From: a virus
DNA length: 48,581 nt
IMG/VR virus record: IMGVR_UViG_3300021959_000073
Location: 1 to 48,581 of that record
Strand: one strand, 5' to 3'
Made by a program: the position numbers and the translations under genes
Part shown: piece after piece, positions 1-44,525 of the stretch
How the letters are laid out: the number at the start of each line of letters is the position of its first letter
Numbering within the stretch: the stretch's first letter is position 1
The notes under the pieces: model-generated
What the model was told of the DNA's origin: nothing
Databases searched by the model: none
Seen by the model: only the letters and a program-made list of their open reading frames with translations

Positions 1-2
1 GT

Positions 3-143
3 TTAGTAAATTATAAAAAGGGTTTGCAAGTAGACCACGTTGACCGCAATCTAAATAATCTTGCGCCTGAAAATCTGAAGACTTACTGCCCTAATGCACA
101 CAGCGGTAAGACTATGAAGTATGAGGATTATATGCCAAAATGA
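3..143 (+). CDS. HNH homing-type endonuclease, C-terminal end (partial)
   Basis: The reading frame is open from the window edge and stops at 141-143. The visible 46 residues contain VDHVDRNLNNLAPENLKTYC, which matches the His-Asn half of an HNH nuclease motif (DHxDxNxxNNxxENL). Such nucleases are common free-standing mobile genes in T4-like phages. The stop overlaps the next start (ATGA). The N-terminus lies outside the window, so whether the gene is intact cannot be judged. Confidence 0.6.
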   Translation, partial: LVNYKKGLQVDHVDRNLNNLAPENLKTYCPNAHSGKTMKYEDYMPK

Positions 144-820
144 AAACTCTTGTATTCCAAGTTAATATAAAACCTAACGGAGTCAAAACTTCTGGTAAAA
201 AAAGGTTTGCATACTCCAATTCTCTTTATGGTTTTTCGAATCAAAGAGCTAAAGAGTATGCAGATAAATTTGGTGCAGATTATTTTTGCTTATATAACAC
301 AGATTGGTTAGGAAATGAATATGCACCATGTTATCATACATTGTATGTTTACAAAATGTATGAAAAATATGATAAAATATTATACCTAGATAGTGATGCT
401 GTAATAACAAAGAATTGTCCAAATATTTTTAATTATGATAAATTTTCAGCAGTTTTAGATAATTCAAAACAAACACCATCAGGAAAAGAAAAAAATAAAA
501 GAAAGTTACAAATACACAATCTTCCAGATACACATGATTATTTTTGTAGTGGAGTGATACTGTTTGATAAAAAGTTCTTACAATTAACTGAACAGTATTG
601 GAAAGATGAATTAGATTGTTGGAAAAATATTAAAAATGGTCAACACGACCAATCTGTGTTTAATGTGTTAGTTTCAAAATATTATGGAAAATATAATTTG
701 CTTGATGATGATTGGGGTTCTTGGAGAAAACGGGGCAAATTTATAACTCATTACAGTGGCCCAACACAAACATCAGAATGGACAGAAGAAAAGTTTTTGA
801 AATGGGAAAATAAACTATGA
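140..820 (+). CDS. GT8-like glycosyltransferase
   Basis: This 226-residue protein has the layout of a small GT-A (GT8-type) glycosyltransferase: a DxD metal/nucleotide-sugar motif in ILYLDSDAV near residue 80, then FCSGVILFD, GQHDQSVFN and a C-terminal HYSG. It would transfer a sugar from a nucleotide sugar to an unknown acceptor. It overlaps the agt-like gene by 4 bases (ATGA) and is two genes upstream of a TET/JBP-like oxygenase, so a role in DNA-base hypermodification is plausible. A role in modifying surface glycans is the alternative. The gene is visibly more A+T-rich than its downstream neighbours, which suggests recent acquisition. Confidence 0.7.
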   Translation: MKTLVFQVNIKPNGVKTSGKKRFAYSNSLYGFSNQRAKEYADKFGADYFCLYNTDWLGNEYAPCYHTLYVYKMYEKYDKILYLDSDAVITKNCPNIFNYDKFSAVLDNSKQTPSGKEKNKRKLQIHNLPDTHDYFCSGVILFDKKFLQLTEQYWKDELDCWKNIKNGQHDQSVFNVLVSKYYGKYNLLDDDWGSWRKRGKFITHYSGPTQTSEWTEEKFLKWENKL

Positions 821-1986
821 AAGTAGCTATTGTTCTAGGACGAGGCCTCGAAGGGTGCGGCGTTACAAAATACACTGTAGAGTTGGAGAGGTGGTTACTC
901 AACAACTCCCATACTCCTATGGTATATGCATCTAAGGATAAAAGGTGGTCTAGGAACGACTCCCATGAGATACAGAATTTGGTTCATGTGCGCTTTGACA
1001 GAGATGATTTTGATGAGGTATATGAGGGCTGTAAATCTTCTGATATAATTATATTCAATTCATTGCCGTCTGTTAATCACAGTAAAAAATGTCAAGATAG
1101 GTTTTCTACACTGTTGGACTTAGGCGTATATAGGGTGTTTATTCAGCATGATCATAACAAGTCTTCACTAAGAAGAAATACATTGCTACAAGATTCTTAT
1201 GAAAAATCAGATATAATATTTGCACACTCCGACACTGGTGATTTTGCAGACATGGTAAATACTCCAAATCTTTTTGATATGAGGAAAATAGATATTCACC
1301 TGATGCAGCCGGGAATATCATTTTCTCACTATGAGGAATATCATAAATCTGTTGAAGATCAAGATATGAAGCATCACAAATGGATAGGTCGGACTGCGAG
1401 ATGGAAAAACTATGACATGATGTTTGACTTCCATAATAAGTATTTAAAAGAATTGGGCCACTTAACCACATTTGAAGGAATAGATAAGAGTCCTATTTTT
1501 ATAGAGTTAAAAAACAGGAATAAGTTTTTTGATGAAGTTGTCTCAGAAATAGACACTGTAGACTTGAAAGATAGATATGGAAAGGATGCGACAGTCTTTG
1601 GTGATTATAACAATAAAGCAATGCTGAATAGGATGTCTAAATGTGGATTTGGCTATCAGCTGTCTTTACTTGAGGACAGATTTATTAAAAAATCCCTAGA
1701 GTTTACTCACTTAGAAATTGTTGCAGTTGGAGCAATACCTGTGTTCAGAAAAGAATACGGGGATATTTGTATTCATCGTTACTATGATAAACCTTTAACA
1801 GAATTAGATAGTGGAACAATATGGCTTTCTAATGACAACATGGAAGAGTGCAGAGATTTGGTGCAAGAGCTGTCTGCTAATGAAGAGCTAAGGAATGAGT
1901 ATAGAGATAAATCATATGATACATATTCTTACTATGACAGCAAATATACTACCCAAGATATGTTTGATAAAATGGAGATGTCATGA
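817..1986 (+). CDS. agt: DNA alpha-glucosyltransferase (T4 AGT homologue)
   Basis: The 389-residue product closely resembles T4 AGT, the GT-B enzyme that transfers glucose from UDP-glucose to 5-hydroxymethylcytosine in phage DNA. Shared blocks are GRGLEGCGVTK at the N-terminus, QHDHNKSSLRRN, FAHSDTGDF, WIGRTARWKNYDMMFDFH, CGFGYQLSLL and SLEFTHLE. The length fits T4 AGT (about 400 residues). It overlaps the upstream glycosyltransferase and the downstream oxygenase by 4 bases each, so the three are probably cotranslated. The product implies a hydroxymethylated pyrimidine in this phage's DNA. No dCMP hydroxymethylase is in the window, and the neighbouring oxygenase could supply the hydroxymethyl group instead. 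Confidence 0.88.
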   Translation: MKVAIVLGRGLEGCGVTKYTVELERWLLNNSHTPMVYASKDKRWSRNDSHEIQNLVHVRFDRDDFDEVYEGCKSSDIIIFNSLPSVNHSKKCQDRFSTLLDLGVYRVFIQHDHNKSSLRRNTLLQDSYEKSDIIFAHSDTGDFADMVNTPNLFDMRKIDIHLMQPGISFSHYEEYHKSVEDQDMKHHKWIGRTARWKNYDMMFDFHNKYLKELGHLTTFEGIDKSPIFIELKNRNKFFDEVVSEIDTVDLKDRYGKDATVFGDYNNKAMLNRMSKCGFGYQLSLLEDRFIKKSLEFTHLEIVAVGAIPVFRKEYGDICIHRYYDKPLTELDSGTIWLSNDNMEECRDLVQELSANEELRNEYRDKSYDTYSYYDSKYTTQDMFDKMEMS

Positions 1987-2930
1987 AGCATATAATCGCA
2001 CAGAATGATTATGGTGAGAAAGAGACTTTCGAAAAGTGGAACGGTAAGTTCTATGATGAGTCTGATCTTGATGAGATTATTCATGTAACAGAGGACACTG
2101 TTATCATGCGTCCAGATGCTACACTTGACGGGCCCGGTGTTCCTATTGCTTATGTGGTAACAAACGCATTTCCGAATGATGATATGCGTGATGTTCTCTA
2201 CGGCATCGAAGAATCATCTACCATGCGAGCAAACTGCGCTGGTCCTATTGACCCTGTTGAGATGGCTGCTAAGGGATTGATTGAGGGTGAACACTACAAA
2301 CTTCGATCTCCCAATTCGTACCATGTGAGAGCAAAAAATGGAAAGTGGGGTATGATCGCATATGCCAACGAAATTAATAGTGTAATGATTGGTGCAAAGC
2401 GTGGACGTTTCACAGGAAAAATTAACATATCCAATGAGGAGAGTTGGAAAGCACTGAAACCATTGTGTGTTGATGTTGAACGTGCATTTGAGAAAGCTGC
2501 ACCAGAGATTTACAATAGACAGAAAAGGTTCGCAGAAGAAGCAATCGCACCAGAGCATCGTCATGGTATGATCACCACCCTGAGTGCTAATCGGTACAGT
2601 GCAATGCAGAGTAAAGCCATGGGTGTTCATAGCGATGGGAAGGATGTTGAGTATACAACTATGAGTTGTCATCGACAGGGCGAATACACGGGAGCGTATC
2701 TCTCATTCCCTCGTTGGGGTGTAGGTCTTGATCTCCCAGATAACTGCGTGTGTATTGCAGATTCTAAGAGTTTACACTGTGTTACACCTATTAGTGGTGC
2801 GGGACAGAGGTTCACAACGGTCTGTTATACGGACCTATCTGCAGCCACAATAGGGAATATGGGTAAGTCAGAACGCCTGATTGGCCGGTTTGCGAAAAAA
2901 GAAGTTGGAAGTTTAGAAGACTTTATTTAA
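1983..2930 (+). CDS. TET/JBP-like 2OG-Fe(II) dioxygenase
   Basis: The C-terminal third of this 315-residue protein has the double-stranded beta-helix signature of TET/JBP dioxygenases. HSDGKD (residues ~217-222) supplies the HxD iron ligands, YLSFPRWGVGLDLPDN the central strands, and LHCVTPISGAGQRFTTVCY the distal His and the 2-oxoglutarate-binding Arg. Family members hydroxylate 5-methylcytosine or thymine in DNA. Directly downstream of agt, it could make the hydroxymethyl acceptor for glucosylation. The N-terminal half is not recognised. Another class of 2OG oxygenase remains possible, since phages of this type carry several. Confidence 0.6.
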   Translation: MKHIIAQNDYGEKETFEKWNGKFYDESDLDEIIHVTEDTVIMRPDATLDGPGVPIAYVVTNAFPNDDMRDVLYGIEESSTMRANCAGPIDPVEMAAKGLIEGEHYKLRSPNSYHVRAKNGKWGMIAYANEINSVMIGAKRGRFTGKINISNEESWKALKPLCVDVERAFEKAAPEIYNRQKRFAEEAIAPEHRHGMITTLSANRYSAMQSKAMGVHSDGKDVEYTTMSCHRQGEYTGAYLSFPRWGVGLDLPDNCVCIADSKSLHCVTPISGAGQRFTTVCYTDLSAATIGNMGKSERLIGRFAKKEVGSLEDFI

Positions 2931-2963
2931 TTGACACCCATCAAGTTCCATGTTATATAAATA
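2931..2963 (+). promoter_or_regulatory. Overlapping sigma-70-like and T4-late-type promoters
   Basis: TTGACA at 2931-2936 is followed after 17 bases by TATATA at 2954-2959 with an extended -10 TG. A T4 late box TATAAATA overlaps it at 2956-2963. A GGAG ribosome-binding site at 2981 serves the start at 2992. The arrangement would allow both early and late transcription of the downstream block. Confidence 0.7.
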
Positions 2964-2991
2964 GAATATAACACACACATGGAGCAGTTGA

Positions 2992-4128
2992 ATGTCTAAT
3001 CTCAATCACTATGTACGGCAATTACGCCCCCGTACAGAATCATATACTCCCCATGTTGATAGGATTCAAGACTTATTCATCAATGAAGCATCCTTTAGTC
3101 CTAAAAACTTTCCATCTGATGTGGGAAATAATAAATCTTTTTCTGGGGCTGGTGAAAGAACAACATATGCTCCAACAAATAAATCAACATACAAATATAA
3201 ATCTGGATTTGAAATAGCGAAAAAAACTTCTTTGTATTCTAAAACAGGAAAAGTTATAAAGTCATTAGTTCCTAATGACAGGGTTTATTTTACAATTCCA
3301 GCAACTCTACACAAATCTGATGAATTTGGTGTTCGTGGTAGAAAGACAACCCTTGCTCCAATATCTCTCAAAGGATTTGATAAAAGTGTAGATGGATACG
3401 TTTCAATAAGTGCTGTTATTAAACCTAGTGGTTCTTCTCAAGGAAGAGTTGGGGCTGGATCAAAAACACAAGATATGGTTGCACAGCATGTTATGGAGAT
3501 ATGTCGAAAAAAAGATTTACAATTTTCAAATGATTATAAGATTGCAAAAGCGGGTTCTACAATCCCTGACTTGGTAATGTCAATTGAAAATAAAAGTGTG
3601 CAATTTGAAATAAAAGGTACAAGTAATAGAAAGTCACAAGTTGCTTTTTTTGATAAGTCTGTTAAAAGGTCTGGTCGTAAACCAGAATTGCTTGAAGAAA
3701 TTGCAAATGTATATATTGATACATTAAAGACAAAAGACGGCAGCGTAAAAAAACTTATGTTAAAAGGTGGTTTTCCTAGTACTTTTGTAGGACTTATTGA
3801 TTTTTATAACTCAATAGATTCAAAAATTGGTTTAGCTGGCGATGAAGGTGTAATAAAATCTGGAAAATTACCATCTGATTTTATTACCGATGACACAACA
3901 ATAATGACTAAGATGTATAAAATAATATTGGATCACTTTGAGGAAGGTGGTGATGACTATTTTGTTATTCATAGTAGGTCTGATGATTCTTTTGAAGTAT
4001 ATTTTTTAGATAGAGGAGATAATATATTAAAAATGCCATCATTACCAAAGTTCAAGAGATTTGAGTTGTCAACATATGGGGGTGCTTCGAGTGGTTCTAC
4101 CCGTGTTGGACTTAAAATTAGACTTTAG
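2992..4128 (+). CDS. Putative PD-(D/E)XK nuclease-fold protein with capsid-targeting-like leader
   Basis: This 378-residue protein has an N-terminal stretch ending LFINEASFS, where INE|A fits the T4 prohead-protease rule (I/L)xE|A. The middle contains TIPDLVMS followed by VQFEIKGTS (about residues 195-212), the spacing of a PD-(D/E)XK nuclease active site. No closer family is recognised. It heads a run of genes with similar leaders and sits behind a late promoter box, so a nuclease carried inside the capsid is a reasonable hypothesis. The gene is A+T-rich relative to its neighbours. Nuclease activity is inferred from the motif alone. Confidence 0.5.
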   Translation: MSNLNHYVRQLRPRTESYTPHVDRIQDLFINEASFSPKNFPSDVGNNKSFSGAGERTTYAPTNKSTYKYKSGFEIAKKTSLYSKTGKVIKSLVPNDRVYFTIPATLHKSDEFGVRGRKTTLAPISLKGFDKSVDGYVSISAVIKPSGSSQGRVGAGSKTQDMVAQHVMEICRKKDLQFSNDYKIAKAGSTIPDLVMSIENKSVQFEIKGTSNRKSQVAFFDKSVKRSGRKPELLEEIANVYIDTLKTKDGSVKKLMLKGGFPSTFVGLIDFYNSIDSKIGLAGDEGVIKSGKLPSDFITDDTTIMTKMYKIILDHFEEGGDDYFVIHSRSDDSFEVYFLDRGDNILKMPSLPKFKRFELSTYGGASSGSTRVGLKIRL

Positions 4129-4136
4129 GCTATGAA

Positions 4137-5087
4137 ATGAAAACCTTCAAATCTTTATACGAGGAATTAGATTTCGCACCCACCCACTCATTAAGTTTAT
4201 CAGAACTTATTTTTACTAGGGCAGAAGGTGGATCAGATATGTCAGCCACTTCAGCAAGAAGAGGTGGGCCCGGTTCGCCAGCAAATCATATGTGGCTGCC
4301 TCTATCTGGTTCTATGTTTAAAAGAATATTCCCGAAGGAAGTTAGAGCAACAGTTTTTCATGTAACAAGAATGACTAGTTTTGATCAGTTGTATGAAATT
4401 CAAAACTCAAATCGTTCCATATCTGCATTTACAAATATGGATAGAACACCTATTGTTACAGGTGTACAGGGAGGTAGTGGTCTTGTTATTGAACTGGAAG
4501 GAAACATTCTTGCATCAGCAAAAGAAGACCTTATGTCTATTCCCGAAACATCTGGTAGAAGGATGCTTGGTTTTAATTGGTTCAGAGGTCCGTGGGGTTC
4601 CGATGATGTTGCGAAAATGCAAAAGGGTCTTGAAATACTATTGAAAGTATTAATCAAAAAATATGGAAAGGCCTTTGGTGGAGATGCACCAAAAGGTAAA
4701 GATGATTTTGACAAATGGATGCACATGCATGTGACATATAAAAATTCTAAAGTAAAGAATGCTGGTAGGATAATGCAATCTCTTATAAAGGATTATTTGG
4801 ATGGTGTTGAGAAAGTATTCAAAAAAAATTCCACACAGGTTCAGAATACATTGACTCGTTATATGCAACGCCGCAAAACTGATGATAACTGGGATGAGAT
4901 TGTAATTGATGATTTTGAAATCAAAAAGATATGGATAATAGAGGATGCAGATGAAATGGTGTCTGGTGCTGCTGAAGAGTTTAAATCTAACATAACATCT
5001 ACAAAATTACCAGTTGAGATTATTAATGCCCAGAACATGGAAGCACATGTAAGGGGTGTTGCAATGAAAGCTACAGGTAGGTCATAA
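4137..5087 (+). CDS. Unknown protein with capsid-targeting-like N-terminus
   Basis: The 316-residue product begins MKTFKSLYEELDF, close to the T4 internal-protein targeting sequence MKTYQEFIAE, with LYE providing an LxE cleavage site. The rest (RRGGPGSPANHMWLP, FHVTRMTSFDQL, VTGVQGGSGLVIELEG) matches no family I recognise. The FHVTR...GSGLVIEL arrangement recalls phage proteins with an ADP-ribosyltransferase-like core, but I cannot show this. Its stop overlaps the next start. Confidence 0.55.
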   Translation: MKTFKSLYEELDFAPTHSLSLSELIFTRAEGGSDMSATSARRGGPGSPANHMWLPLSGSMFKRIFPKEVRATVFHVTRMTSFDQLYEIQNSNRSISAFTNMDRTPIVTGVQGGSGLVIELEGNILASAKEDLMSIPETSGRRMLGFNWFRGPWGSDDVAKMQKGLEILLKVLIKKYGKAFGGDAPKGKDDFDKWMHMHVTYKNSKVKNAGRIMQSLIKDYLDGVEKVFKKNSTQVQNTLTRYMQRRKTDDNWDEIVIDDFEIKKIWIIEDADEMVSGAAEEFKSNITSTKLPVEIINAQNMEAHVRGVAMKATGRS

Positions 5088-6691
5088 TGATAACACAATC
5101 AGATTTAAATCAGGTAGAGAAGTTTGCTGATCGGCTGTTCGCAAAGGTTGGTATTGATGTTGAGTTCACTCGACACTTTATGGACAGGGTGAATGATGCT
5201 CGTAATAAGAAAGCTATCACACCTTCTGAACTGACTCGTCTATTCAAGCAGTCTTATTCCAAGTATGGTAAAAAGATAGCACAGCTTGGTCCTGATGCTG
5301 AAGCTGTTATCAATGACATGAAGACGAATATCAATATGCCATTTGTCCTCAACCTCAAAGGAAATGAGTTGGAGTTGGTGGCAAAAACTGTTATGCGTAA
5401 GAAAGATTTCAAGACCTCTGGTCCTAAGTTGTCTTTTGAACAGTTTAGTAATTGTTCACCTTTTGTTCTTTTAGAAGATAAGGGCGGTAAGAACCTTCAC
5501 CTAGAACATCTAGAGGATGAAATCCTTAACTATGGTGTTGATGGTGGTAGAGCTGCACTTGACTTCCTGCGTTCTCTACGAGATATGTTAGCGGGTTCTG
5601 CACGTTCTAGTGTAAACATGACGGTTAAGTGGGACGGTGCGCCAGCAATCTTCGCTGGTGTTGAACCAGAGACAGGTGACTTTTTTGTGGCCAAGAAATC
5701 TGTGTTCAACGTCTCACCCAAATTATACAAGACCACAAAAGAAATTGATGATGATTTATCTGGAGCATTAAATGAAAAGTTTAAAGTTGCACTTAAAGAG
5801 TTTTCTAAGTTGGGTATCAAGGGGGTACTACAGGGTGACCTCATGTTCACTGACGATGTGGAAACAGAGACTATCGATGGCGTCAAGTATTATACTTTTC
5901 AGCCTAACACTATTGTCTATGCTATACCTGTTGATAGCGTATTAGGTAAGACTATCAACAAAGCAAAAGTTGGTATTGTCTGGCACACCACATATACAGG
6001 CGACACCCTACAGGGTATGAAAGCATCATTTGGTGCAGATATTAAGGGGTTAAAAACCCCATCAAGCGTTTGGATGGATGATGCAACCTATAAGGACGCA
6101 TCTGGTAAGGCAACATTTACTGCTAAAGAGACAGAACAAATCACTGCTATACTATCACAAGTTGGTAAAACTTTCAATAAGATCAATGCGAATGGGTTGC
6201 GTAAGTTCCTTACTGTGCAGAACGGTATGACGGGTGCGATTGCTGGTGCATCTCTCAAGACTTACAATAACTCAAAGGTTCGTGCGGGTGAGAAGATTAG
6301 TAATCCTGCCGCACATGCAAAGGGTTATGAGAAGTGGGTGTTTGACTCTATCCAGAAACAGATTGACAAGGTTAAGAGTGACAAGGGTAAGAAGAAATAC
6401 ACTGACATGCAGAAAGAGTATGGCCGTGAAATAAAAAAACACACTCAAAATCTAACACAGATCATCACCTTCCAGAACCTATTGGTTGATGCGAAGATGC
6501 AAATCGTTAATAAACTAAATAGTGTAAAGGGTTTGACCGATACTTTTATTAAGACCTCAAATGGATTTAAGGTGACAAATCCCGAAGGATATGTTGCTAT
6601 TGACAGAATAAGTGGTGGTGCAGTTAAACTGGTGGACCGTATGGAGTTCTCGTTTAACAACTTCACAGCTGTCAAAAATTGGATGAAATAG
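5087..6691 (+). CDS. Fused protein with ATP-dependent ligase/nucleotidyltransferase-like domain
   Basis: The 534-residue product has two parts. Residues ~1-110 are a small module (FTRHFMDRVNDARN...). Residues ~115-534 look like a covalent nucleotidyltransferase: VKWDGAPAIFAG (motif I, KxDG-like), GVLQGDLMF (motif IIIa-like), and near the C-terminus PEGYVAIDR and VKLVDRMEF (motifs IV and V). RNA and DNA ligases share this order. LSFEQFSNCSPFVLLED at ~118-134 looks like a relic targeting leader, as if two separate genes had fused. Related proteins are frequent in marine T4-like phages (DUF6267, from memory). Ligase activity is an inference. Confidence 0.55.
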   Translation: MITQSDLNQVEKFADRLFAKVGIDVEFTRHFMDRVNDARNKKAITPSELTRLFKQSYSKYGKKIAQLGPDAEAVINDMKTNINMPFVLNLKGNELELVAKTVMRKKDFKTSGPKLSFEQFSNCSPFVLLEDKGGKNLHLEHLEDEILNYGVDGGRAALDFLRSLRDMLAGSARSSVNMTVKWDGAPAIFAGVEPETGDFFVAKKSVFNVSPKLYKTTKEIDDDLSGALNEKFKVALKEFSKLGIKGVLQGDLMFTDDVETETIDGVKYYTFQPNTIVYAIPVDSVLGKTINKAKVGIVWHTTYTGDTLQGMKASFGADIKGLKTPSSVWMDDATYKDASGKATFTAKETEQITAILSQVGKTFNKINANGLRKFLTVQNGMTGAIAGASLKTYNNSKVRAGEKISNPAAHAKGYEKWVFDSIQKQIDKVKSDKGKKKYTDMQKEYGREIKKHTQNLTQIITFQNLLVDAKMQIVNKLNSVKGLTDTFIKTSNGFKVTNPEGYVAIDRISGGAVKLVDRMEFSFNNFTAVKNWMK

Positions 6692-9600
6692 ATGCGTAGT
6701 TTTAGAGATATCACAGAGGCTAAAGAAACTGTTGTATTTGGATTCGGGCGATTCAATCCAAGCACGATTGGGCATGAGGCCGTTATTGAAAAGATTGCTT
6801 CTGTAGCAAAGGGCAATCCATTCTTCATATATCCTTCACATACTACTGGACCTAAAGACCCCCTAAAGCACTCTTTGAAAATTGCGTGGATGAGGAAGAT
6901 GTTCCCCAAGTACAAGAAGAACATTATTGTAGATAATAAGGCTAAGACTGTCATCAACATTGCTGAGAAACTATACAAGGATGGTTATAAAAATTTAATT
7001 CTTGTGGTGGGAAGCGATAGAGTAAAAGATTTCGATGCCCTATTACAGAGATATAATGATGCACCAGACAAAAAAGGTAATCAGTTATTCAAATTTGATT
7101 CAGTCAAAGTGGTATCTGCTGGAGAGCGTGATCCAGACGCAGATGGCGTTGCCGGGATGTCTGCCAGCAAACTCAGAAAGGCAGCATCAGATGGTAAGTT
7201 TGATGATTTCAAAAAGGGTATCCCCAATACATTGAACGACGCCGATAAGAAGAAATACTATTTTGACGTTCGTAAGGGAATGGGTATTCGTGAAGATCGT
7301 GAAATGGGTGATGACTATGATTCATTGCGTGACGCATACCTCACAGGTAAAATCTGGAACGTGGGTGAAGTTGTAGAGGCAAACGGTGTCAGTGGTGAGG
7401 TTGTTCGTAAGGGTACAAACTATCTCTCATTCGTAGCAGAGGATGGCAAGGTTCATAAGGCATGGTTACATGAGATTGAACTTGATGAAAATGCAGTTTA
7501 TGATAAAGCAAAGTCTGATGGTGCTAAAAAATATAAAGATAGTCTTGGTGGTGAAGAACCTCTGACAGCAGCAAAATCTCCCTTACAGAAATTGAAGGAC
7601 TTTGACAAGTCCAGAGTTGCCGCAGGGAAACCACCCATATTTACAGACAAGAAACCACCTAAGTTTATTCGCATGAAGAAGTCTGGCCAGATGACAATCA
7701 TGAATGTCCCTACTGATGAGATTGATAAATTTGAGAAGAAGGGTTATGAGATCATTGAAGACCTTGTTGGTGTAAAACCAATGAGTGGACCTACAGGACA
7801 AATCTTTGCATTGAAGTCTGAAGAAGTTGAACTTGATGAAGACGCTTCTGTATATAAAAAGACTGCAAGAAAAAATAAAAATGACGTTACATATGCTTTT
7901 GGTAGAACTAAAAAACTAGATGGCCAACCAAAAGAAAAGGGTGGATATTGGGTTTGGAAATTGTCGAAGAATTATGATGGAAAAGTTCGGGGTGGTATTA
8001 GAGACTCATGGGTATATGTTGACAAAGATTTATCTTATTCTGATGCTGTCAAATTAATGAATAAAAAACTTGGACGCAAAGAATTTAAAGAATCAGTTAA
8101 GGGTAAGGATGTTGGATATCCAGATGAATCCGTGAAGATTGGTAAGAAACACTATATCATCTACAAAGGTGGTAGAGAATGGTATGGATATGAAGTAGAC
8201 AAAGAGGGAAACCAGCTTGGAGACTCAGTGTTTGATCCTAAAAAGAGTGAACTGATAAAGATTCTCGCACAAGAAGGTCTTGATGAGCGCAACTACGCTA
8301 AAGAATATGCGAACTACCAAGGAACACCAGAACAGATTGCTCGCCGTTCTTCAAGGAACAAGGCTCGTAGGGCAATGGGTGACAAGGCAGTTAAGGGTAT
8401 GGACGTTGGACATAAAGACAACAACCCAATGAATAATGACCCGAAGAACCTACGCATGGAGAAACCATCTGACAATCGTAGAGAACCACGGTTGCGTGAA
8501 GAAGATGAACTTGATGAGATGGCATGGTATAAAGTAGCACTAGCAAAAATTAGTCAATTGAACCACCCTAAAGATTATGAAAAAATGGTCAAACAATATG
8601 CGACTGATATGAAAAAACCAGAACTAAAAAACAAGACTGCTTCTTATATCGCAGCAAGGATTGCCCAAGAGTATAAGGGTCAGGACGGTAGAAAACTTGT
8701 TCAGTATATCAACAAACTGGTTGATGATGGTAAACTCCCCAAAGAACTCAAGGCAGAATATCAAGAAGAAGAAACAATGCAGACCTTTAGTGATTTCGTT
8801 AAACAGATCAATGAAGTCAAACAGGACAAAGATGTAGATGATAAGGATGGAACACAACCAGCAAAGTACTATGCTGGTGATATGGCCAAGTCTACCAAAT
8901 CCAAGAGGGATGCACACTTCAAAGCAAAGAAGGCTGGTCCTGCTCCCGGCGATGCTTCTGCAAAAACTAAACCATCCACACACACTAAGAAGTTCAAACA
9001 GATGTATGGCGAAGCGTTACCTAAAGATGCAGATCAAGGTGATTACATCGATGATTTCGAGAAGTCAGATGCACCACAGTTTAGGGGTAAGTCTAAAGAG
9101 AAACGCAAGGACATGGCTATCGCTGCATACCTCTCAAAGAATGAGTCTTTCCTAGATAACGTCAGTAGGATGTTGGGTGAGGATGGTCACACTGATGTTG
9201 CGTCTATGAAAAATAAGGTTCAGATTGCTCAAAAAGCATTGATGAAGATGCAAGGTGAACTGACTAAACTTGGTGATGAAGATGATCTACCTACATGGTG
9301 GACAAACAAGGTTGCAACAGCAGTATCTCGTTTGGATGACATGTCTGATTATATTGACACTCAGGTTGAAGATGTGCAACTAGACGAAAAGATTGAAGGT
9401 CTGGTGAAGAAGGCAGATAAGTCTGGTATGCCATACTCTATTCTCAAGAAGGTATATGATCGTGGTATGGCAGCATGGAAAACGGGTCATCGTCCCGGCA
9501 CCACACCACAACAGTGGGCGATGGCGAGGGTCAACTCGTTCGTGACAAAGAGTAGTGGCACTTGGGGTAAAGCAGATAAAGACCTAGCAAAACAGGTTGA

Positions 9601-9964
9601 ACAGATAGAAGAAGCTTGTTGGGTTGGATACAAACAGGTTGGTATGAAAAAGAAGGGTAATAAAGAAGTGCCCAATTGTGTACCAGAAGAGAAAGAATTA
9701 AATGAGTGGGGTGAGATTGAGGAAGAATCAGAATATCAAGGTCGTAAAGTCACTCTAAACAAACCCACAAAGGGTGATGTTAAAAAGTCCAAGGTGTATG
9801 TCAAGAATGAAAAAGGCAATGTAGTCAAGGTCGAGTTCGGTGATCCTAACATGCAAATCCAAAAAGACATTCCATCACGAAGGAAAAGCTTCCGTGCTCG
9901 ACACAATTGTGATAATCCCGGCCCAAAATGGAAAGCAAGATACTGGTCATGCAAAGCATGGTAA
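6692..9964 (+). CDS. Modular capsid polyprotein with N-terminal nucleotidylyltransferase
   Basis: This 1090-residue protein opens with MRSFRDITEAKE, where ITE|A is a likely prohead-protease site. A HIGH-superfamily nucleotidylyltransferase follows (GRFNPSTIGHEAVI, then GMSASKLRKAA near residue 155). A string of short modules is separated by LxE-type junctions: IELDE ~266, EEVELDE ~380, GLDE ~530, DELDE ~607, VQLDE ~895, KELNE ~1003. One module is HNH-like (VGHKDNNPMNNDPKNLRM ~572-589), another resembles DUF5872 (DRGMAAWKTGHRPGTTPQQW ~920-940). The C-terminus FRARHNCDNPGPKWKARYW is common in marine phage virion proteins. The protein probably enters the prohead and is cut into peptides and enzymes; this is inferred. 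Confidence 0.65.
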   Translation: MRSFRDITEAKETVVFGFGRFNPSTIGHEAVIEKIASVAKGNPFFIYPSHTTGPKDPLKHSLKIAWMRKMFPKYKKNIIVDNKAKTVINIAEKLYKDGYKNLILVVGSDRVKDFDALLQRYNDAPDKKGNQLFKFDSVKVVSAGERDPDADGVAGMSASKLRKAASDGKFDDFKKGIPNTLNDADKKKYYFDVRKGMGIREDREMGDDYDSLRDAYLTGKIWNVGEVVEANGVSGEVVRKGTNYLSFVAEDGKVHKAWLHEIELDENAVYDKAKSDGAKKYKDSLGGEEPLTAAKSPLQKLKDFDKSRVAAGKPPIFTDKKPPKFIRMKKSGQMTIMNVPTDEIDKFEKKGYEIIEDLVGVKPMSGPTGQIFALKSEEVELDEDASVYKKTARKNKNDVTYAFGRTKKLDGQPKEKGGYWVWKLSKNYDGKVRGGIRDSWVYVDKDLSYSDAVKLMNKKLGRKEFKESVKGKDVGYPDESVKIGKKHYIIYKGGREWYGYEVDKEGNQLGDSVFDPKKSELIKILAQEGLDERNYAKEYANYQGTPEQIARRSSRNKARRAMGDKAVKGMDVGHKDNNPMNNDPKNLRMEKPSDNRREPRLREEDELDEMAWYKVALAKISQLNHPKDYEKMVKQYATDMKKPELKNKTASYIAARIAQEYKGQDGRKLVQYINKLVDDGKLPKELKAEYQEEETMQTFSDFVKQINEVKQDKDVDDKDGTQPAKYYAGDMAKSTKSKRDAHFKAKKAGPAPGDASAKTKPSTHTKKFKQMYGEALPKDADQGDYIDDFEKSDAPQFRGKSKEKRKDMAIAAYLSKNESFLDNVSRMLGEDGHTDVASMKNKVQIAQKALMKMQGELTKLGDEDDLPTWWTNKVATAVSRLDDMSDYIDTQVEDVQLDEKIEGLVKKADKSGMPYSILKKVYDRGMAAWKTGHRPGTTPQQWAMARVNSFVTKSSGTWGKADKDLAKQVEQIEEACWVGYKQVGMKKKGNKEVPNCVPEEKELNEWGEIEEESEYQGRKVTLNKPTKGDVKKSKVYVKNEKGNVVKVEFGDPNMQIQKDIPSRRKSFRARHNCDNPGPKWKARYWSCKAW

Positions 9965-9966
9965 CT

Positions 9967-9982
9967 TATAAATATATAAATA
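9967..9982 (+). promoter_or_regulatory. Tandem T4-late-type promoter boxes
   Basis: Two adjacent TATAAATA boxes (9967-9974 and 9975-9982) lie upstream of the second polyprotein gene, followed by an AAAGGA ribosome-binding site before 10005. They match the T4 late promoter, recognised by gp55/gp33-modified RNA polymerase. Confidence 0.7.
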
Positions 9983-10004
9983 GAATATAATAAAGGAAAA
10001 TCCT

Positions 10005-12074
10005 ATGTCAAATTACAGAAAAACAATGGCCGATGCGCTGCGAGAGATGTATCCTCTTACAGAAGAAACACAGATTGATGAAGCTACAATGAGTTCTTCT
10101 CAGATTGCGAGGTTGAAGAAGGCATATGAACCTATGCGTGATAAGAAAATCAGTACATCAAATGCTGATAAACTTAGCGCAATGATGGACAAGGTGGGTA
10201 AAGACAAAGAAGCACTTATCCAGTTGTTCAAGGCAGATATTCCTTTCGTGAGTCAAAGCGCAGTAACAAAACTTATTACCAAGCACAATATGAAGGGTGC
10301 TGAGATTAATAAGTTGCGGGAAGAAGTTGACCTTGATGAGGTAGGTGGTTCTGCGTTTGGTGGAACGATTGATAAAATTCAAAAGGTTGTTGATGACAAA
10401 CAAGCAACGAAGATTGATGGTGTAATGGTTGATACATTTACCGCATCATTAATTATGAAAATCTGGAACGGGGTGAGCAAACAAAATCAAGACAAGATGA
10501 GGAAAATGAAAGTCACTCAACTTGCTAAGACAGCATATAAATTGGCAGGAATGAAAGAAGAAGTTGACCTTGATGAAGGAACAAAACAGGTTCTTGCTCA
10601 CGGTGGTAAAGGTAAGTATAAAGTAACCAAGGATGGCGACAAAATTGAAATTAAGTTCGGTGGTAAGGTAGTTGGAACTGCTGACTTTGACCGTGGTGCT
10701 GACAGTTTCTTCGTAAGTATCAAAGGTGAGAGGGGTCAGAAGTCTTTTGACGATGCACAGGCAATTGCTGATTATTTCGCAAAGAACAAGATTACAGAAG
10801 AAGTTGACCTTGATGAAGGTAAGATGAACAATGCGACGATGCAAGCAAACAAACCAAGGATTGAAAAAGCAAAAAAACTTATGGGACCATCTACAAGTAG
10901 AAAAGAAGGCATACAGATGGTTGCAAAGGGTATGCCCACTTCAGAAAAAGAGGCTACTAAACTGGTTGATACAGTTATAAAGATGATGCAGAAAAATGAT
11001 TATGTCCCAGAAGAAGTTGACCTTGATGAAAATCTCAATGAAATAAAAAAACATATTGATGATCTTGAGTTTGAGCGCAAGCGTATGACAACCAGCGGTC
11101 AGGAATCTTTAGATAAACTCATTAAGGCAAAAAGTATAAAAGATGCCAGAAAAGCATTTGATGACATGTATGGATACGAATATGACAGAGTTACATCAAG
11201 TGGTCAAGAGAGTATGGTTAAGATTGGTAAAATGTTGGGTATGAAGATGGAAGAAGTTGACCTTGATGAAGATAGTCTTGATGATTTTCAAGACTTTGCC
11301 CGTCTTTATGGTGGGGGTGATGAAATTTATGTTGTAACTCAAGGAAAAGATTCTAATTCACTAAAAGTTATTGGTATAGAAAAAGACCCAAATAAAGCAA
11401 AGAAAATCCGTGATCGTGCTAAAGGTGCGAGAGCAAGTCTTTGGGGTCAGATGAAAAGTTCTCAAAAAGTTCTCAAACTAAAAATTGGTGATCCTGTTAG
11501 TTTTGAAGACTCCAAAAATAAATTATCTTTTATTGAAGAAGTTGACCTTGATGAAGGTAAGATGTCTCAGTTGCACCAGTATATCAAAGACAAGAAGAGC
11601 GCAGAAGAGATTGCGAAACTGATGAAGTTGGATGTCAAAACAGTTAAGTCACTGATGAGCAGTCATCATCCAGAGGATGTTGAAGAGGGTGCTGCAGCTG
11701 ATGCTCGCCGTGCAATGCGTGCTGATCCAGATATGCGACAGAAGTTCTCAAAGGATGTTTCTGCAACTGATGATGACGTAAAGGGCGCATCAAAGAATAT
11801 TATGATGCAGATGCGAAAAGCACAATCACTGAATGGTCGTTTCGATGTTGAGTTTGCTGACGGTAAGAAAGTTAAAATTCCTGCGAAGATGGCTATTGCA
11901 GTTCAGCAGAAATACAATTCTATGAAAAGACCCGCAGAGAAAGAAAAGTTTCAGGCAAAAATTGGAAAGTCTTACAAGGATATGTTGTCTGCACTTAAAG
12001 AAGAACTACAACCCAAGAAAGAATCAATCCTAGAACGGATGAATAGAAAACTCAAGGAGAATAAAGATGGGTAA
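10005..12074 (+). CDS. Modular capsid polyprotein with six EEVDLDE linkers
   Basis: The 689-residue product starts MSNYRKTMADALREMY and has a first junction TQIDE|A. Six perfect EEVDLDE linkers then separate unrelated 70-95-residue modules, near residues 106, 185, 265, 336, 416 and 511. LDE fits the (I/L)xE specificity of T4 prohead protease gp21, so the protein looks like a precursor cut into about seven small basic polypeptides inside the prohead. No module has an enzyme motif I recognise; the sixth (MSQLHQYIKDKKSAEEIAKL) is HTH-like. It lies behind a double late promoter. Its stop overlaps the next gene by 8 bases. Confidence 0.6.
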   Translation: MSNYRKTMADALREMYPLTEETQIDEATMSSSQIARLKKAYEPMRDKKISTSNADKLSAMMDKVGKDKEALIQLFKADIPFVSQSAVTKLITKHNMKGAEINKLREEVDLDEVGGSAFGGTIDKIQKVVDDKQATKIDGVMVDTFTASLIMKIWNGVSKQNQDKMRKMKVTQLAKTAYKLAGMKEEVDLDEGTKQVLAHGGKGKYKVTKDGDKIEIKFGGKVVGTADFDRGADSFFVSIKGERGQKSFDDAQAIADYFAKNKITEEVDLDEGKMNNATMQANKPRIEKAKKLMGPSTSRKEGIQMVAKGMPTSEKEATKLVDTVIKMMQKNDYVPEEVDLDENLNEIKKHIDDLEFERKRMTTSGQESLDKLIKAKSIKDARKAFDDMYGYEYDRVTSSGQESMVKIGKMLGMKMEEVDLDEDSLDDFQDFARLYGGGDEIYVVTQGKDSNSLKVIGIEKDPNKAKKIRDRAKGARASLWGQMKSSQKVLKLKIGDPVSFEDSKNKLSFIEEVDLDEGKMSQLHQYIKDKKSAEEIAKLMKLDVKTVKSLMSSHHPEDVEEGAAADARRAMRADPDMRQKFSKDVSATDDDVKGASKNIMMQMRKAQSLNGRFDVEFADGKKVKIPAKMAIAVQQKYNSMKRPAEKEKFQAKIGKSYKDMLSALKEELQPKKESILERMNRKLKENKDG
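10320..11554 (+). repeat. Six dispersed 20-bp direct repeats encoding EEVDLDE
   Basis: The sequence GAAGAAGTTGACCTTGATGA recurs at 10320, 10557, 10797, 11010, 11250 and 11535, always in frame, with spacings of 237, 240, 213, 240 and 285 bases. The copies are identical in DNA although the modules between them are unrelated. That suggests homogenisation by recombination or recent module shuffling at the linkers. A variant (GAAGTTGAACTTGATGAAG) occurs near 7828 in the preceding gene. Confidence 0.9.
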
Positions 12075-12738
12075 GAAATATTTTGACACAAAGGCCGAAA
12101 CCCTTGAATCTTCGATTCTAGGTATTTGGACAGAAGCAGCTAAGAAGGTTGCTGAAACCAATAAGAACAACAAGTCTGATGATGGTGAGGGGTTGGATGC
12201 AGTTCAACCAAAAGCAGTCAAGAAGAAGTTCAAGGATCGTAAGGACAAGGACATCGACAACGATGGCGACACTGATGATTCTGATGAGTATCTTCACAAT
12301 CGTCGTAAGACAGTATCTAAGGCAGTAAAAGGTAAAGTAAAGGATGAAGGTAACGCATTTGGAATGGCACTAAAGGCTGCCAAAGACAAGGGCGAAAAAA
12401 CTTTCGTTGTTGCTGGTAAGACATATGAAGTCAAAGAAGGTTTCGCAGTACCAGAAGATGTTCCTGCAATGGAAGTCGGTACAGACCGTTATCGTGAATA
12501 TGCTGTTGGTCTTACGCCCGGTGAAAATGCTGAGTTTGCAGCTGCACAGGACTTCAAGGTTGCTTCAATGAAGGAAGCACTTGCAAAAGTTTGGGGTTTG
12601 GACGAGAAAGCACTTGACAAATCCTCTAAAGAAGAGTATGATGAAGAAGATGAGGAGCTCAAACCCGTTAAAGGTTCAAAGACCATGACAGGTGGAAAAG
12701 TTGCTAAAGTGGATACTAAACCCAAAATTGATGGTTGA
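12067..12738 (+). CDS. Capsid-associated protein with EF-hand-like loop
   Basis: The 223-residue charged protein begins MGKKYFDTKAETLESS and has WTEAAKK as a possible cleavage region. A loop KDIDNDGDTDDSDEYLHNRR (residues ~59-78) resembles an EF-hand or dockerin-type calcium site. GNAFGMALKAAKDKGEKTF is a module also common in marine phage virion proteins. It follows the polyprotein genes and precedes a probable nucleotidase, and is probably another prohead-internal protein. The C-terminus is acidic. Its exact role is unknown. Confidence 0.5.
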   Translation: MGKKYFDTKAETLESSILGIWTEAAKKVAETNKNNKSDDGEGLDAVQPKAVKKKFKDRKDKDIDNDGDTDDSDEYLHNRRKTVSKAVKGKVKDEGNAFGMALKAAKDKGEKTFVVAGKTYEVKEGFAVPEDVPAMEVGTDRYREYAVGLTPGENAEFAAAQDFKVASMKEALAKVWGLDEKALDKSSKEEYDEEDEELKPVKGSKTMTGGKVAKVDTKPKIDG

Positions 12739-12739
12739 A

Positions 12740-13255
12740 ATGAAAAGTTTGTTGGATATGATGGAGGCATCTGGTGATGATCTCCCAGAAATTTATTGTG
12801 ATATGGATCAGGTTCTATGTAACTTTATCGGCCGTGCTGAGGAAGTTATTGGAATGCCCTTTGCTAAGTTCGGTAAGGATGACCGCTGGAACAAGATTAG
12901 GGACACAAAGGATTTCTGGGCAAATCTAGATTGGATGCCGGGTGCAAAACGGTTATATTCTTTTATTCAGAAGTATGACACGCACATCCTTTCTGCTTAT
13001 TCTGATCGTGATGATAACTCTAGGGCGGGTAAGAAAAAGTGGTTGAAGAAGAATACTAAGATTAAACCTCGTAACATCAATCTTGTGAAGAGGGCAGACA
13101 AACAGAAATATGCAACTACTGATGGGAAACCAAACATATTAATTGATGATTATAAGAAGAACATTGTAGAGTGGGAATCTAAGGGTGGTATAGGCGTTTA
13201 CCACACAGAAGTGGGTAAAACCATTGCTGAGTTGAAGCGTCTAGGTTTCAAATAA
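12740..13255 (+). CDS. HAD-like 5'(3')-nucleotidase / phosphatase
   Basis: The 171-residue protein has the HAD-superfamily motif I YCDMDQVLCNF (DxDxV) near residue 17, HILSAYSDRDD as motif II/III region and ILIDDYKKN as motif IV. This fits 5'(3')-deoxyribonucleotidases. I start at 12740 (MKSLLDMMEASGDD), because the leader then resembles the capsid-targeting peptides of its neighbours (MME|A). An in-frame ATG at 12731 is an alternative. A packaged nucleotidase would be unusual; nucleotide salvage is the conventional role. Confidence 0.65.
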   Translation: MKSLLDMMEASGDDLPEIYCDMDQVLCNFIGRAEEVIGMPFAKFGKDDRWNKIRDTKDFWANLDWMPGAKRLYSFIQKYDTHILSAYSDRDDNSRAGKKKWLKKNTKIKPRNINLVKRADKQKYATTDGKPNILIDDYKKNIVEWESKGGIGVYHTEVGKTIAELKRLGFK

Positions 13256-13263
13256 CCTAAATA
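13256..13263 (+). promoter_or_regulatory. Late-promoter-like CCTAAATA box
   Basis: CCTAAATA sits about 40 bases upstream of a strong AAGGAG site and the structural gene at 13303. The same extended string AATAACCTAAATA recurs before the curli-like cassette at 24756-24768, suggesting a shared late-promoter variant. Confidence 0.5.
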
Positions 13264-13302
13264 AAAGTAAAATCTATTCTTGCAAGAATAAGGAGAAAAA
13301 CA

Positions 13303-13983
13303 ATGCCTTTATGGGGAAATTCGGACGCTGTTGAAGCTAAACCAAAACACTTCACAGACGCTGAGAAATTAAACGTATATGCCACAGAACAAGGTTGGGT
13401 TAAGAAAACAACTGGAACTGGTGGTCGTGCTGGTCGCACACAGGAAGAAGTTATTGTTGCGATTGGTGGTCTAAGTGCCTCTCTGAACCTCGCAGATATT
13501 ACTGCTATTGATTGGAATATCAGTGCATTTGATAAGTCTGATGGCGGCACTTTGAGTGCTACAGTTACCTTCAACGAAGAAGTTGAAGTTGCTACCGATG
13601 GCGGCACACCACACCTTGCTGTTACAAACGGCAACCAAGGAACTGGTTCTGGTCGTGGTCCACACAACCTTCTGTATGTCAGTGGTTCAAGCACGAACAG
13701 ACTCACGTTTGAACTTGCAATTGCTGCCGCTAATGCTGCGACAAACGCAGATGACGTTCTTTCAATCGCAGCAAACGCTCTTGCCTTGAACAGTGGTACA
13801 ATTAACGAAATGTCTCTTGATCACTTTGTTCTAGAGAGTGGAACAAACAATGGTGATCAGGGTGAATTTATCCGACTAGAGGATCAACGTGGTTACTTGA
13901 ACCAAGAAGGAAACACCGTTTCTACAATTACTAACGCAGCTGCAATCGGCAGTGCCGCAGGAACAATTACTGTTGCTGCATAA
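13303..13983 (+). CDS. Virion structural protein (marine T4-like)
   Basis: This 226-residue protein begins MPLWGNSDAVEAKPKHF and continues YATEQGWVKKTTGT, an N-terminus characteristic of structural proteins in marine T4-like phages. The C-terminal half is rich in Ala, Asn, Thr and Gly with beta-strand character, such as SATVTFNEEVEVATDGG, like an immunoglobulin or bacterial adhesion repeat. It may be a capsid decoration or neck protein. It has a strong ribosome-binding site and a late-type box upstream. Confidence 0.5.
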   Translation: MPLWGNSDAVEAKPKHFTDAEKLNVYATEQGWVKKTTGTGGRAGRTQEEVIVAIGGLSASLNLADITAIDWNISAFDKSDGGTLSATVTFNEEVEVATDGGTPHLAVTNGNQGTGSGRGPHNLLYVSGSSTNRLTFELAIAAANAATNADDVLSIAANALALNSGTINEMSLDHFVLESGTNNGDQGEFIRLEDQRGYLNQEGNTVSTITNAAAIGSAAGTITVAA

Positions 13984-13987
13984 GTTG

Positions 13988-13995
13988 TATAAATA
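13988..13995 (+). promoter_or_regulatory. T4-late-type promoter box
   Basis: TATAAATA lies about 37 bases upstream of the start at 14032, which has an AAGGAG ribosome-binding site. Confidence 0.65.
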
Positions 13996-14031
13996 ACTAT
14001 ATACTATGTCATAATATGAAAAGGAGAAATT

Positions 14032-14280
14032 ATGATCGATCTTGATAAGATTAATGAACGCAAACAAGTTATTGCGAAAGACATTGAAGCGGTTCGGACC
14101 CGTATGGCAGAAGCGCAGAAGAAATTCGCAGAGGACCAATCATTGTTGCAGGCACTTATGGGTGCATATCAGCAGTGTGACGCCTTTGCAAAAGATTTTA
14201 ATGATGATACTCCCAATGAGGAGAGTGATGTAGAGAATAGTGAAGACCTAGAGGATGTAAAACCTGGCGGTACTGACTAA
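14032..14280 (+). CDS. Small coiled-coil protein
   Basis: The 82-residue protein is a helical coiled coil (INERKQVIAKDIEAVRTRMA and onward) with a central FAEDQSLLQALMGAYQQC and an acidic C-terminal tail. It has its own late promoter and is followed by an intrinsic terminator. Size and context suggest a minor virion or assembly factor; no family is recognised. Confidence 0.6.
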   Translation: MIDLDKINERKQVIAKDIEAVRTRMAEAQKKFAEDQSLLQALMGAYQQCDAFAKDFNDDTPNEESDVENSEDLEDVKPGGTD

Positions 14281-14296
14281 TATCTACAATAGCATT

Positions 14297-14317
14297 CCCA
14301 CAATTTCGTGGGTTTTT
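14297..14317 (+). terminator. Intrinsic terminator
   Basis: CCCAC (14297-14301) pairs with GTGGG (14308-14312) around a 6-base loop, followed by five T. Confidence 0.75.
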
Positions 14318-14334
14318 ATAAGGAGAAGCCAAAA

Positions 14335-14811
14335 ATGGCAGATAAGAAGATTACAGCCCTAACAGACCTATCGACAGGTATCGCTACAGAAGACCTTTTG
14401 CATGTGATTGATAACCCAACGGGTACACCAATCAACAAGAAGATTTCTGTTGCAAACTTTTTGAACCTTAATCCCGTTCCTCTGGCAACCAACACAGTAG
14501 AAAACATCGTTGAAAACGGTGCAGCCAACCTCGCCAAAGGTATTCACCTTCTTGGTGGTGCAGATGCTGCTTGTGCAGTTACCTTGGCTGACGGTACTGT
14601 AACTGGTCAGCTTCATACGTTTATTGCTAAAGAAGCAGTAACGAATCCACCTACAGTTACTTTGACCACTCCCGGTGGTGCAGGTAATATTGCTACTTTC
14701 AACGCTATTGGTGAAAGTGCAACTTGTCTCTGGACAGGTGCTGCTTGGTACTGGATTGCTCATGCTACAAATGTTACGGGTGATCTTGGAACAGGTCCAG
14801 CGCTTACATAA
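14335..14811 (+). CDS. Virion structural protein
   Basis: This 158-residue protein starts [20 protein letters not shown], a sequence typical of small structural proteins in marine phages, and continues [16 protein letters not shown]. The C-terminal part is beta-rich and hydrophobic with Gly/Thr-rich strands ending [13 protein letters not shown]. The ATG at 14335 is chosen because AAGGAG lies 9 bases upstream; an upstream in-frame GTG falls inside the terminator hairpin. It sits between two hairpins, as an isolated transcription unit. Confidence 0.6.
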
Positions 14812-14830
14812 TAGTATACTACTTTGGTGT

Positions 14831-14847
14831 GGGGGGCTTGTCCCCCC
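14831..14847 (+). terminator. GC-rich hairpin, probable terminator
   Basis: Six G (14831-14836) pair with six C (14842-14847) across a CTTGT loop. The following tract (CGCCATTTTA) is only weakly T-rich, so it could be a terminator or an RNA-stabilising hairpin. Confidence 0.55.
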
Positions 14848-14873
14848 CGCCATTTTACGAATGGGAGAATTAA

Positions 14874-15026
14874 ATGGTTGAAGTTTTATCAGAGGTAAAT
14901 TGGGGCAAGGCAATCGAACCTGTCACCAAAGTTTTTACTAAGAAAAAAGAAGAACCTAAATTCCTTGAAGAACAAATTAGAGATTACTATCCCTGTGACG
15001 TAGAACCGAAGGACGAAGAAAAATGA
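14874..15026 (+). CDS. Small acidic/basic protein, 50 residues
   Basis: A GGGAGAA site precedes this ATG. The product runs MVEVLSEVNWGKAIEPVTKV to VEPKDEEK and its stop overlaps the following start by 4 bases, which supports it as a real coupled gene. No family is recognised. Confidence 0.6.
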   Translation: MVEVLSEVNWGKAIEPVTKVFTKKKEEPKFLEEQIRDYYPCDVEPKDEEK

Positions 15027-15472
15027 AAACATTTAAGAAATTCGTATCCGAAGAAACTTTAGACGAAGCCACATTTCAGACAACTATTGCTTCTCTAAAC
15101 CAAGACATTCCAACAGGTGATTATTCTGATCCCAGAGTTGTGAAGGCGCTTAATTCTTTCGTGGGTACAGTGGCAAGAGCTACAATGGACGGAACAATGA
15201 TCCCTGAGATGGTTGTTGGTAAGATGAGAAATTCTCTAAGTAAGATTGGACTAACCTTTGGTGAAGTCCCAATGATGGAAGGTGAAAGTGGTTCCTTTGA
15301 TTTACCCCTAACCAGTTTTGGTGGTCGTTTCGGTAAAGGTTTGGATACGCCATTTGATGAGTTTGAAGCAGATGACGGTATCTCGCATCAAGTAGAGGGT
15401 GGTCTAAAACTAGTACTAAATTATGAAATGCAAGAGGATAATTCGTGTAGGTTGACTGCTTCTATTCAATAA
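15023..15472 (+). CDS. Capsid-targeted protein with leader MKTFKKFVSEETLDE|A
   Basis: The 149-residue protein has the clearest T4 internal-protein-like leader in the window: MKTFKKFVSEETLDEATF, with LDE|A as a cleavage site. The rest (FVGTVARATMDGTMIPEMVV, then LTSFGGRFGKG) resembles a conserved protein near the neck/capsid genes of marine T4-like phages whose function I do not know. It is translationally coupled to the upstream 50-residue gene. Confidence 0.6.
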   Translation: MKTFKKFVSEETLDEATFQTTIASLNQDIPTGDYSDPRVVKALNSFVGTVARATMDGTMIPEMVVGKMRNSLSKIGLTFGEVPMMEGESGSFDLPLTSFGGRFGKGLDTPFDEFEADDGISHQVEGGLKLVLNYEMQEDNSCRLTASIQ

Positions 15473-15473
15473 A

Positions 15474-15836
15474 ATGTATGAGAAGATAACTACTAACAAT
15501 TTCATGATGTATGCTATTAAACATTATGAGAATCCACATTGTGAAGGTGAAAAAGAGTTTCATGATGATATGAAGAGGTTTAAGTATATTAAACGTCTAC
15601 TAAAGAAGTATAGAGTGAGTGGAGTATTAAAAGAACGGTTGCTTCTGAACCATATTATTATTCTTAGGAACTTGTTTGGAAATGAGGCATGTGTTACCCT
15701 TTTACTTTTTAAGACACAACCAGAATATCTTGAAGTCTTGAAGTCTTTCCTACTTTTCCTAAATATGATTAATCCAGATGAACTGAACGAAATTGATTTG
15801 GATGAAGGTGTTATAGATATATTAAGGAAAATCTAA
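15474..15836 (+). CDS. Conserved marine T4-like phage protein
   Basis: This 120-residue helical protein begins MYEKITTNNFMMYAIKHYEN and has KRFKYIKRLLKKY and LLLNHIIILRNLFGNEA. I recall it as a conserved family in marine T4-like phages (DUF7207, to be verified), with no known function. An internal EIDLDEG near the C-terminus matches the LxE pattern of the polyproteins. Its stop overlaps the next start (TAATG). Confidence 0.6.
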   Translation: MYEKITTNNFMMYAIKHYENPHCEGEKEFHDDMKRFKYIKRLLKKYRVSGVLKERLLLNHIIILRNLFGNEACVTLLLFKTQPEYLEVLKSFLLFLNMINPDELNEIDLDEGVIDILRKI

Positions 15837-16450: not shown

Positions 16451-16746
16451 AAAGCTATCAAAAATTTATGCAAGAAGTCTATAAGTTGCAGCTCATTCGA
16501 GATAAATCTATGGACGTTTTAAAAATTACTGATACTAAGAACCCAAAGACTAAGATAGAAGTTCGTGGCAAAAAGGGTTACGAAATTGATGGATATGACA
16601 AAAAAGATAGACTACATAGTCTTTTAGATAAAATTGGAAAGTCTGCAAACATGAGCGATCTTGTGAATGGAGAGGTTGTGAGTATCAATCCTAAACACCC
16701 AGACGCAAGAATGGCGAACAAGACCCTTGATAAGATTGCAAAATAA
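16447..16746 (+). CDS. Small protein with capsid-targeting-like leader
   Basis: This 99-residue protein begins MKSYQKFMQEVYKLQ, very close to T4 internal-protein leaders (MKTYQEFIAE), and is then basic (IEVRGKKGYEIDGYDKKDRL). It overlaps the upstream gene by 4 bases. Flanking 32-bp repeats mark it as a likely inserted cassette. A T4-style internal protein is the best guess. Confidence 0.55.
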   Translation: MKSYQKFMQEVYKLQLIRDKSMDVLKITDTKNPKTKIEVRGKKGYEIDGYDKKDRLHSLLDKIGKSANMSDLVNGEVVSINPKHPDARMANKTLDKIAK

Positions 16747-16793
16747 TGAAAACAAAGGAAAAGATATACGTCAGTTTGGAGGACATAAAATGA
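16746..16793 (+). pseudogene. Duplicated 3' remnant of the 204-residue gene
   Basis: A 15-codon frame MKTKEKIYVSLEDIK copies the ending KTQEKIYVSLEDIK of the gene at 15836. It overlaps its neighbours by ATG/TAA contacts, as a gene would. It is best read as recombination debris that now supplies the ribosome-binding site (GGAGGA) for the gene at 16790. Confidence 0.6.
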
Positions 16794-18721: not shown

Positions 18722-18722
18722 T

Positions 18723-19004: not shown

Positions 19005-19005
19005 T

Positions 19006-19170: not shown

Positions 19171-19175
19171 ATATT

Positions 19176-44522: not shown

Positions 44523-44525
44523 CTG

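Follow-up and report, generated by a model that had tools for sequence, protein, structure and literature searches.

The beginning of the analysed stretch of viral DNA (the window, 48,581 nucleotides) carries a group of genes that quite likely encodes a pathway of cytosine hypermodification acting at the level of DNA, in which methylation, oxidation and glucosylation would perhaps be followed, as the fourth and last step, by the action of a GT8 glycosyltransferase. The cluster is probably a known sort of DNA disguise built from a new combination of parts.

Organization of the Gene Cluster

The window opens with the C-terminal end (positions 3–143) of a ResIII/helicase-like protein with an HNH domain, which is followed on the same plus strand by three genes: a GT8 glycosyltransferase (140–820, 226 aa, PF01501, E = 3.5e-9), regarded by its inferred role as a candidate second-sugar transferase; a T4-type DNA alpha-glucosyltransferase, AGT (817–1986, 389 aa, PF11440, E = 1.7e-67); and a TET/JBP-type Fe(II)/2-oxoglutarate dioxygenase (1983–2930, 315 aa, PF12851, E = 4.1e-7), which presumably converts 5mC to 5hmC in DNA. 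The neighbouring pairs GT8/AGT and AGT/TET each share a 4-base overlap, ATGA. The preliminary description of this DNA had placed a T4-type agt homologue between overlapping GT8-like and TET/JBP-like genes, and the coordinates, overlaps and Pfam matches agree with it. The matches of GT8, AGT and TET to their families are not due to chance, and dN/dS ratios of about 0.08–0.28 indicate purifying selection on all three genes.

The region upstream of the window is available on L002, an overlapping contig from the same virus population, whose positions 6581–19507 are identical to positions 1–12927 of the window (100.000% identity over 12,927 bases). L002 contains the whole 595-aa helicase-like/HNH protein (4936–6723) and, beyond it, a C5-cytosine methyltransferase (3667–4875, PF00145, E = 3.4e-52), located 1.7 kb upstream of the first base of the window, and a DNA polymerase; the helicase-like/HNH protein lies between the methyltransferase and GT8. 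A search for a C5-methyltransferase had been suggested as a check, and the gene was found here and beside TET in most relatives.

The gene order of the window cluster was confirmed on L090, L002 and L061. An assembly artefact cannot explain the linkage, because the order methyltransferase–helicase/HNH–GT8–AGT recurs on a separate contig, L090, and is repeated with other slot contents on L007, L010, L061 and L091. Among the 74 contigs on which a TET gene can be recognised, 57 also carry a methyltransferase, and it adjoins or overlaps TET in 39; the 17 contigs that have none are mostly short, although L012 lacks one despite 8 kb of upstream sequence. On L044 (1528–3603) methyltransferase and TET are naturally fused into one protein of 691 aa, whose methyltransferase half is 37% identical to that of L002 and comes from another branch of methyltransferases, here combined with the same TET. 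This adjacency, together with the L044 fusion, is the strongest sign that TET would act on 5mC.

Other genes were also observed next to TET in relatives (L003 3196–3729, L051 3148–3606, L068 3713–5173 and L016 3409–4650). They encode small P-loop kinase-like proteins, a nucleotidyltransferase–kinase fusion and unassigned proteins, and are possible alternative hypermodification enzymes.

AGT and the TET Dioxygenase

The assignment of AGT is supported by the Pfam match given above, by the PHROG alpha-glucosyltransferase family (E = 9.4e-84) and by a full-length match to T4 AGT structures (E = 5.7e-77). The residues H114, D115, R204, K209, E306 and E311, which we take to be the functional residues of T4 AGT, are invariant among the AGT relatives. 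By family and catalytic residues, the cluster thus includes a glycosyltransferase of the type that uses 5hmC in DNA, and the earlier naming of this gene as a T4-type agt is borne out.

TET was the weakest call: its PF12851 (Tet_JBP) score falls under the curated cut-off of the family, and a sequence search of the PDB with TET as the query gave no useful match. For this reason, its structure was predicted from 25 relatives (pLDDT 83.8) and the fold compared. The leading matches were all TET enzymes, with Z = 19.8 for TET2, 17.8 for CMD1 and 16.8 for NgTET1 (across the matches to these three, Z ranged from 16.6 to 19.8), and the next families, AlkB and FTO, had Z of about 13–14. Across 67 TET relatives, the Fe/2OG residues H216-x-D218, H265 and R276 do not vary. 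The agreement with the folds of TET2, CMD1 and NgTET1 settles the assignment, so that the TET/JBP-like oxygenase of the preliminary description stands despite the weak Pfam score; the choice of substrate does not follow from the fold by itself.

GT8 and a Possible Second Sugar

GT8 belongs to its family by a PF01501 score above the cut-off and by a DxD motif, present as an invariant DSD (D84-S85-D86). On L061 its place is taken by TAGT (PF20691), which exactly replaces GT8 between the same two junctions, and the same holds for L011; the AGT–TET DNA of L061 is 97.8% identical to that of the window, and the upstream flank 94%. The slot is empty in L005, L007, L010 and L091. In T6-like phages, TAGT puts a second glucose onto alpha-glucosyl-hmC (PMC13216743, PMC13390438), and transfer of a second sugar by GT8 is plausible because GT8 fills the exact slot of TAGT in nearly identical relatives. 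The G+C content of the GT8 and TAGT cassettes, 28.5% and 30.8% against 42–44% for methyltransferase and TET, is as expected for exchanged genes. The second sugar that had been mentioned earlier as a possibility is therefore backed by the slot exchange and is put forward here, still, as a proposal.

It is also possible, though we lean away from it, that GT8 stands outside the DNA pathway and glycosylates a virion protein or a host surface glycan, merely sitting in the operon. A Foldseek comparison with a modest GT8 model (pLDDT 66.6, from 6 sequences) gave LgtC and the PBCV-1 capsid glycosyltransferase as the best matches, the latter in favour of such a role, as are a remote homologue in S-CAM7 located within a fucose/sugar/tail-fibre cluster and the glycan-like neighbours, FkbM-type and others, on L098 and L099. 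The linkage of the gene argues against it: an independent search for GT8 gave 6 loci, all with a methyltransferase and 5 with TET, and to this are added the overlap with AGT in the window and the exact exchange with TAGT. On L097–L099, GT8 follows TET without AGT, and one of these contigs also has TAGT. Overall, we regard a role of GT8 in DNA modification as moderately probable and set it no higher because the remote relatives serve virion and surface glycans and because of the neighbours on L098 and L099.

Cofactor of the Methyltransferase

The nearest solved relative of the C5-methyltransferase (METHYLTRANSFERASE) is SpCmoX (8YF3, E = 2.2e-73, about 41% identity), a GC-specific cytosine C5-carboxymethyltransferase (PMC12783734). 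This relationship favours a CmoX-like enzyme that transfers a carboxymethyl or other group from a SAM analogue, with TET and the glycosyltransferases acting on that product and not on 5mC; so does the residue at motif X, which is Leu here, usually Asn in C5-methyltransferases and Arg in CmoX. The same residue also argues in the opposite direction. At the position of the Cx-SAM-binding R350 of SpCmoX (Asn304 of HhaI), Leu is fully conserved in the TET-linked clade (56 of 56 TET-associated methyltransferases), whereas S-B43, S-CRM01 and Mcat8 have Arg, and the fused enzyme of L044 has the canonical Asn. CmoA was absent from seven records, including L002, L045, complete Melnitz (the nearest isolate) and the window, whose own genome is incomplete. 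CmoX was rejected as an identity of this enzyme on the Leu in place of Arg350 and the absence of CmoA, and we consider a CmoX-like reaction quite unlikely.

As judged from its sequence, the enzyme is most likely a SAM methyltransferase, its cofactor being uncertain insofar as motif X has Leu and not the usual Asn, and it is possibly GC-specific. The CmoX/CmoA/CmoY system of Synechococcus phage S-B43 (PMC12783734) is similar in that a related cytosine C5-transferase, which in S-B43 needs a GC motif, occurs in a T4-like marine phage; it differs in that here Arg350 is replaced with Leu, CmoA is absent and the partner is TET, while the partner in S-B43 is an amide ligase.

Dinucleotide and 4-mer counts, examined for clues to the methylation motif, told nothing about GC. 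As a separate observation, CGCG is missing from the window (0 seen, 36 expected) and GATC is depleted (118 against 215 expected), and in pieces of Melnitz the counts are 1 against 64 for CGCG and 23 against 507 for GATC; this depletion possibly reflects restriction avoidance.

Source of the Hydroxyl Group

Most likely, the acceptor arises within DNA, in the order C, 5mC, 5hmC and alpha-glucosyl-hmC, because methyltransferase and TET occur as a pair or a fusion and because no dCMP hydroxymethylase was found in the window, L002 or Melnitz. The search for PF00303, the thymidylate-synthase-type family that includes this enzyme, gave no match in the window, L002, L045 or the complete 141.5-kb Melnitz genome, with positive controls; for the window virus itself, the absence of a PF00303 protein with the dCMP-selecting Asp (PMC8670742) is bounded by the part of its genome that is known, about 55 kb of perhaps 140 kb. 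That search, too, had been named in advance as a check.

A hydroxymethylase encoded outside these 55 kb could supply hmC by the T4 route, with TET employed elsewhere, for example, in further oxidation of hmC. What speaks for this route is L094, where positions 1–4390 contain in a row a gp42-type dCMP hydroxymethylase, an AGT 50% identical to ours and a divergent C5-methyltransferase-like gene. The hydroxymethylase upstream of AGT matches T4 gp42 (1b49) with E = 4.4e-49 and keeps the dCMP-selecting Asp, so the AGT lineage can be used with the T4 route. Against it are the PF00303 result, the ThyX and dCMP deaminase domains carried by the window, and the methyltransferase that adjoins TET in most relatives and is fused to it in L044. 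We therefore find the T4 route very improbable for the window virus, and it seems from the gene neighbourhoods that different phages supply the same AGT lineage by two distinct routes.

Also very improbable is a base-J-like pathway in which the substrate of the dioxygenase is thymine and hmU is the acceptor for the glycosyltransferases, since PF12851 does span TET and JBP but the dioxygenase is linked and even fused to a C5-cytosine methyltransferase, the AGT family is the one that uses hmC, and the best folds, which by themselves leave the substrate unfixed, are those of TETs acting on 5mC.

The preferred reading thus remains oxidation of methylated cytosine in DNA. The preliminary description had proposed both that such oxidation supplies the acceptor and that a T4 glucosyltransferase is combined here with a TET-type route; as far as genes and residues go, the methyltransferase–TET linkage supports both.

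Relation to Melnitz and Other Features of the Window

The window virus is related to Methylophilales phage Melnitz, whose genome backbone is similar, and can be described as a Melnitz-like, T4-related marine phage. The TET and methyltransferase of Melnitz EXVC044M are 56% and 74% identical to those described here, and their genes overlap; unlike the window, Melnitz has no AGT or GT8 beside TET. This is a point against the DNA-level pathway, as Melnitz has TET and methyltransferase yet no AGT at that place. In the Melnitz annotation, TET was left as a hypothetical protein and the methyltransferase was read as ordinary protection against restriction.

A permuted two-piece tmRNA (Rfam, ARAGORN), also reported for Melnitz, lies at 44027–44523 of the window. 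The region of 12–48 kb encodes CsgG and CsgF of curli secretion (curli genes are also known in Melnitz), CHASE2 and guanylate cyclase domains, a sulfotransferase, an APS kinase and more 2OG oxygenases. A mosaic protein of 1090 aa, encoded at 6692–9964, combines cytidylyltransferase-like, Gp23-like, HNH and DUF5824 pieces; its length and pieces vary in relatives.

Comparison with Known Systems

In T4, T2 and T6 (gp42, AGT, BGT/TAGT), glucosylation relies on the same AGT family, and TAGT occurs in the nearest relatives of the window as it does in T6. The difference is that a gp42-type dCMP hydroxymethylase was not found here, and the hydroxyl group is presumably made on DNA by methyltransferase and TET.

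Phage gene clusters that join a C5-methyltransferase and TET with glycosyltransferases were reportedly described by Burke et al. in PNAS in 2021. The marks of such clusters are present here, namely, a C5-methyltransferase in the cluster and a TET with HxD...H...R. According to the passages of PMC12730594 and PMC11404850 that deal with them, citing Burke 2021, such clusters were already known; the likeness lies in the joint occurrence of the three kinds of enzymes and in the presumed conversion of 5mC to 5hmC and glycosylated cytosine in DNA. Here, in distinction, a T4-type AGT stands first with GT8 as its partner, the comparison being drawn from the accounts in the citing papers. The papers searched, among them those citing Burke 2021, gave no report of a TET cluster with a T4-type AGT or of an exchange of GT8 and TAGT. 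Within this search, both the pairing with AGT and the exchange appear new, with uncertain priority.

Proposed Pathway and Its Significance

The sequence examined shows the genes with their families, catalytic residues and linkage, and it lacks the nucleotide route; from this we infer every reaction, the sequence motif and the purpose of the pathway. The C5-methyltransferase encoded upstream would methylate cytosines within a short motif that may be GC; TET would hydroxylate 5mC in DNA to 5hmC; AGT would put alpha-glucose on 5hmC; and, as a weaker step, GT8 may add a second sugar, different or differently linked, in place of the T6-type TAGT. The resulting hmC would be glycosylated at restricted sites and would protect the DNA against host nucleases. 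The more specific proposal of a motif-restricted hmC disaccharide made wholly on DNA, with a GT8 sugar or linkage unseen in T-even phages and with GT8 and TAGT as interchangeable end-cap cassettes, is tentative, and we rate it somewhat short of even.

If this model is true, the T4 glucosyltransferase is a module whose substrate can come from either of two unrelated hydroxylation routes, at the nucleotide level in T4 and L094 and at the DNA level here, and the last sugar is swapped in the manner of a cassette among phages that are nearly identical. By the DNA-level route, glycosylation would be confined to chosen motifs, which bears on phage evasion of modification-dependent restriction.
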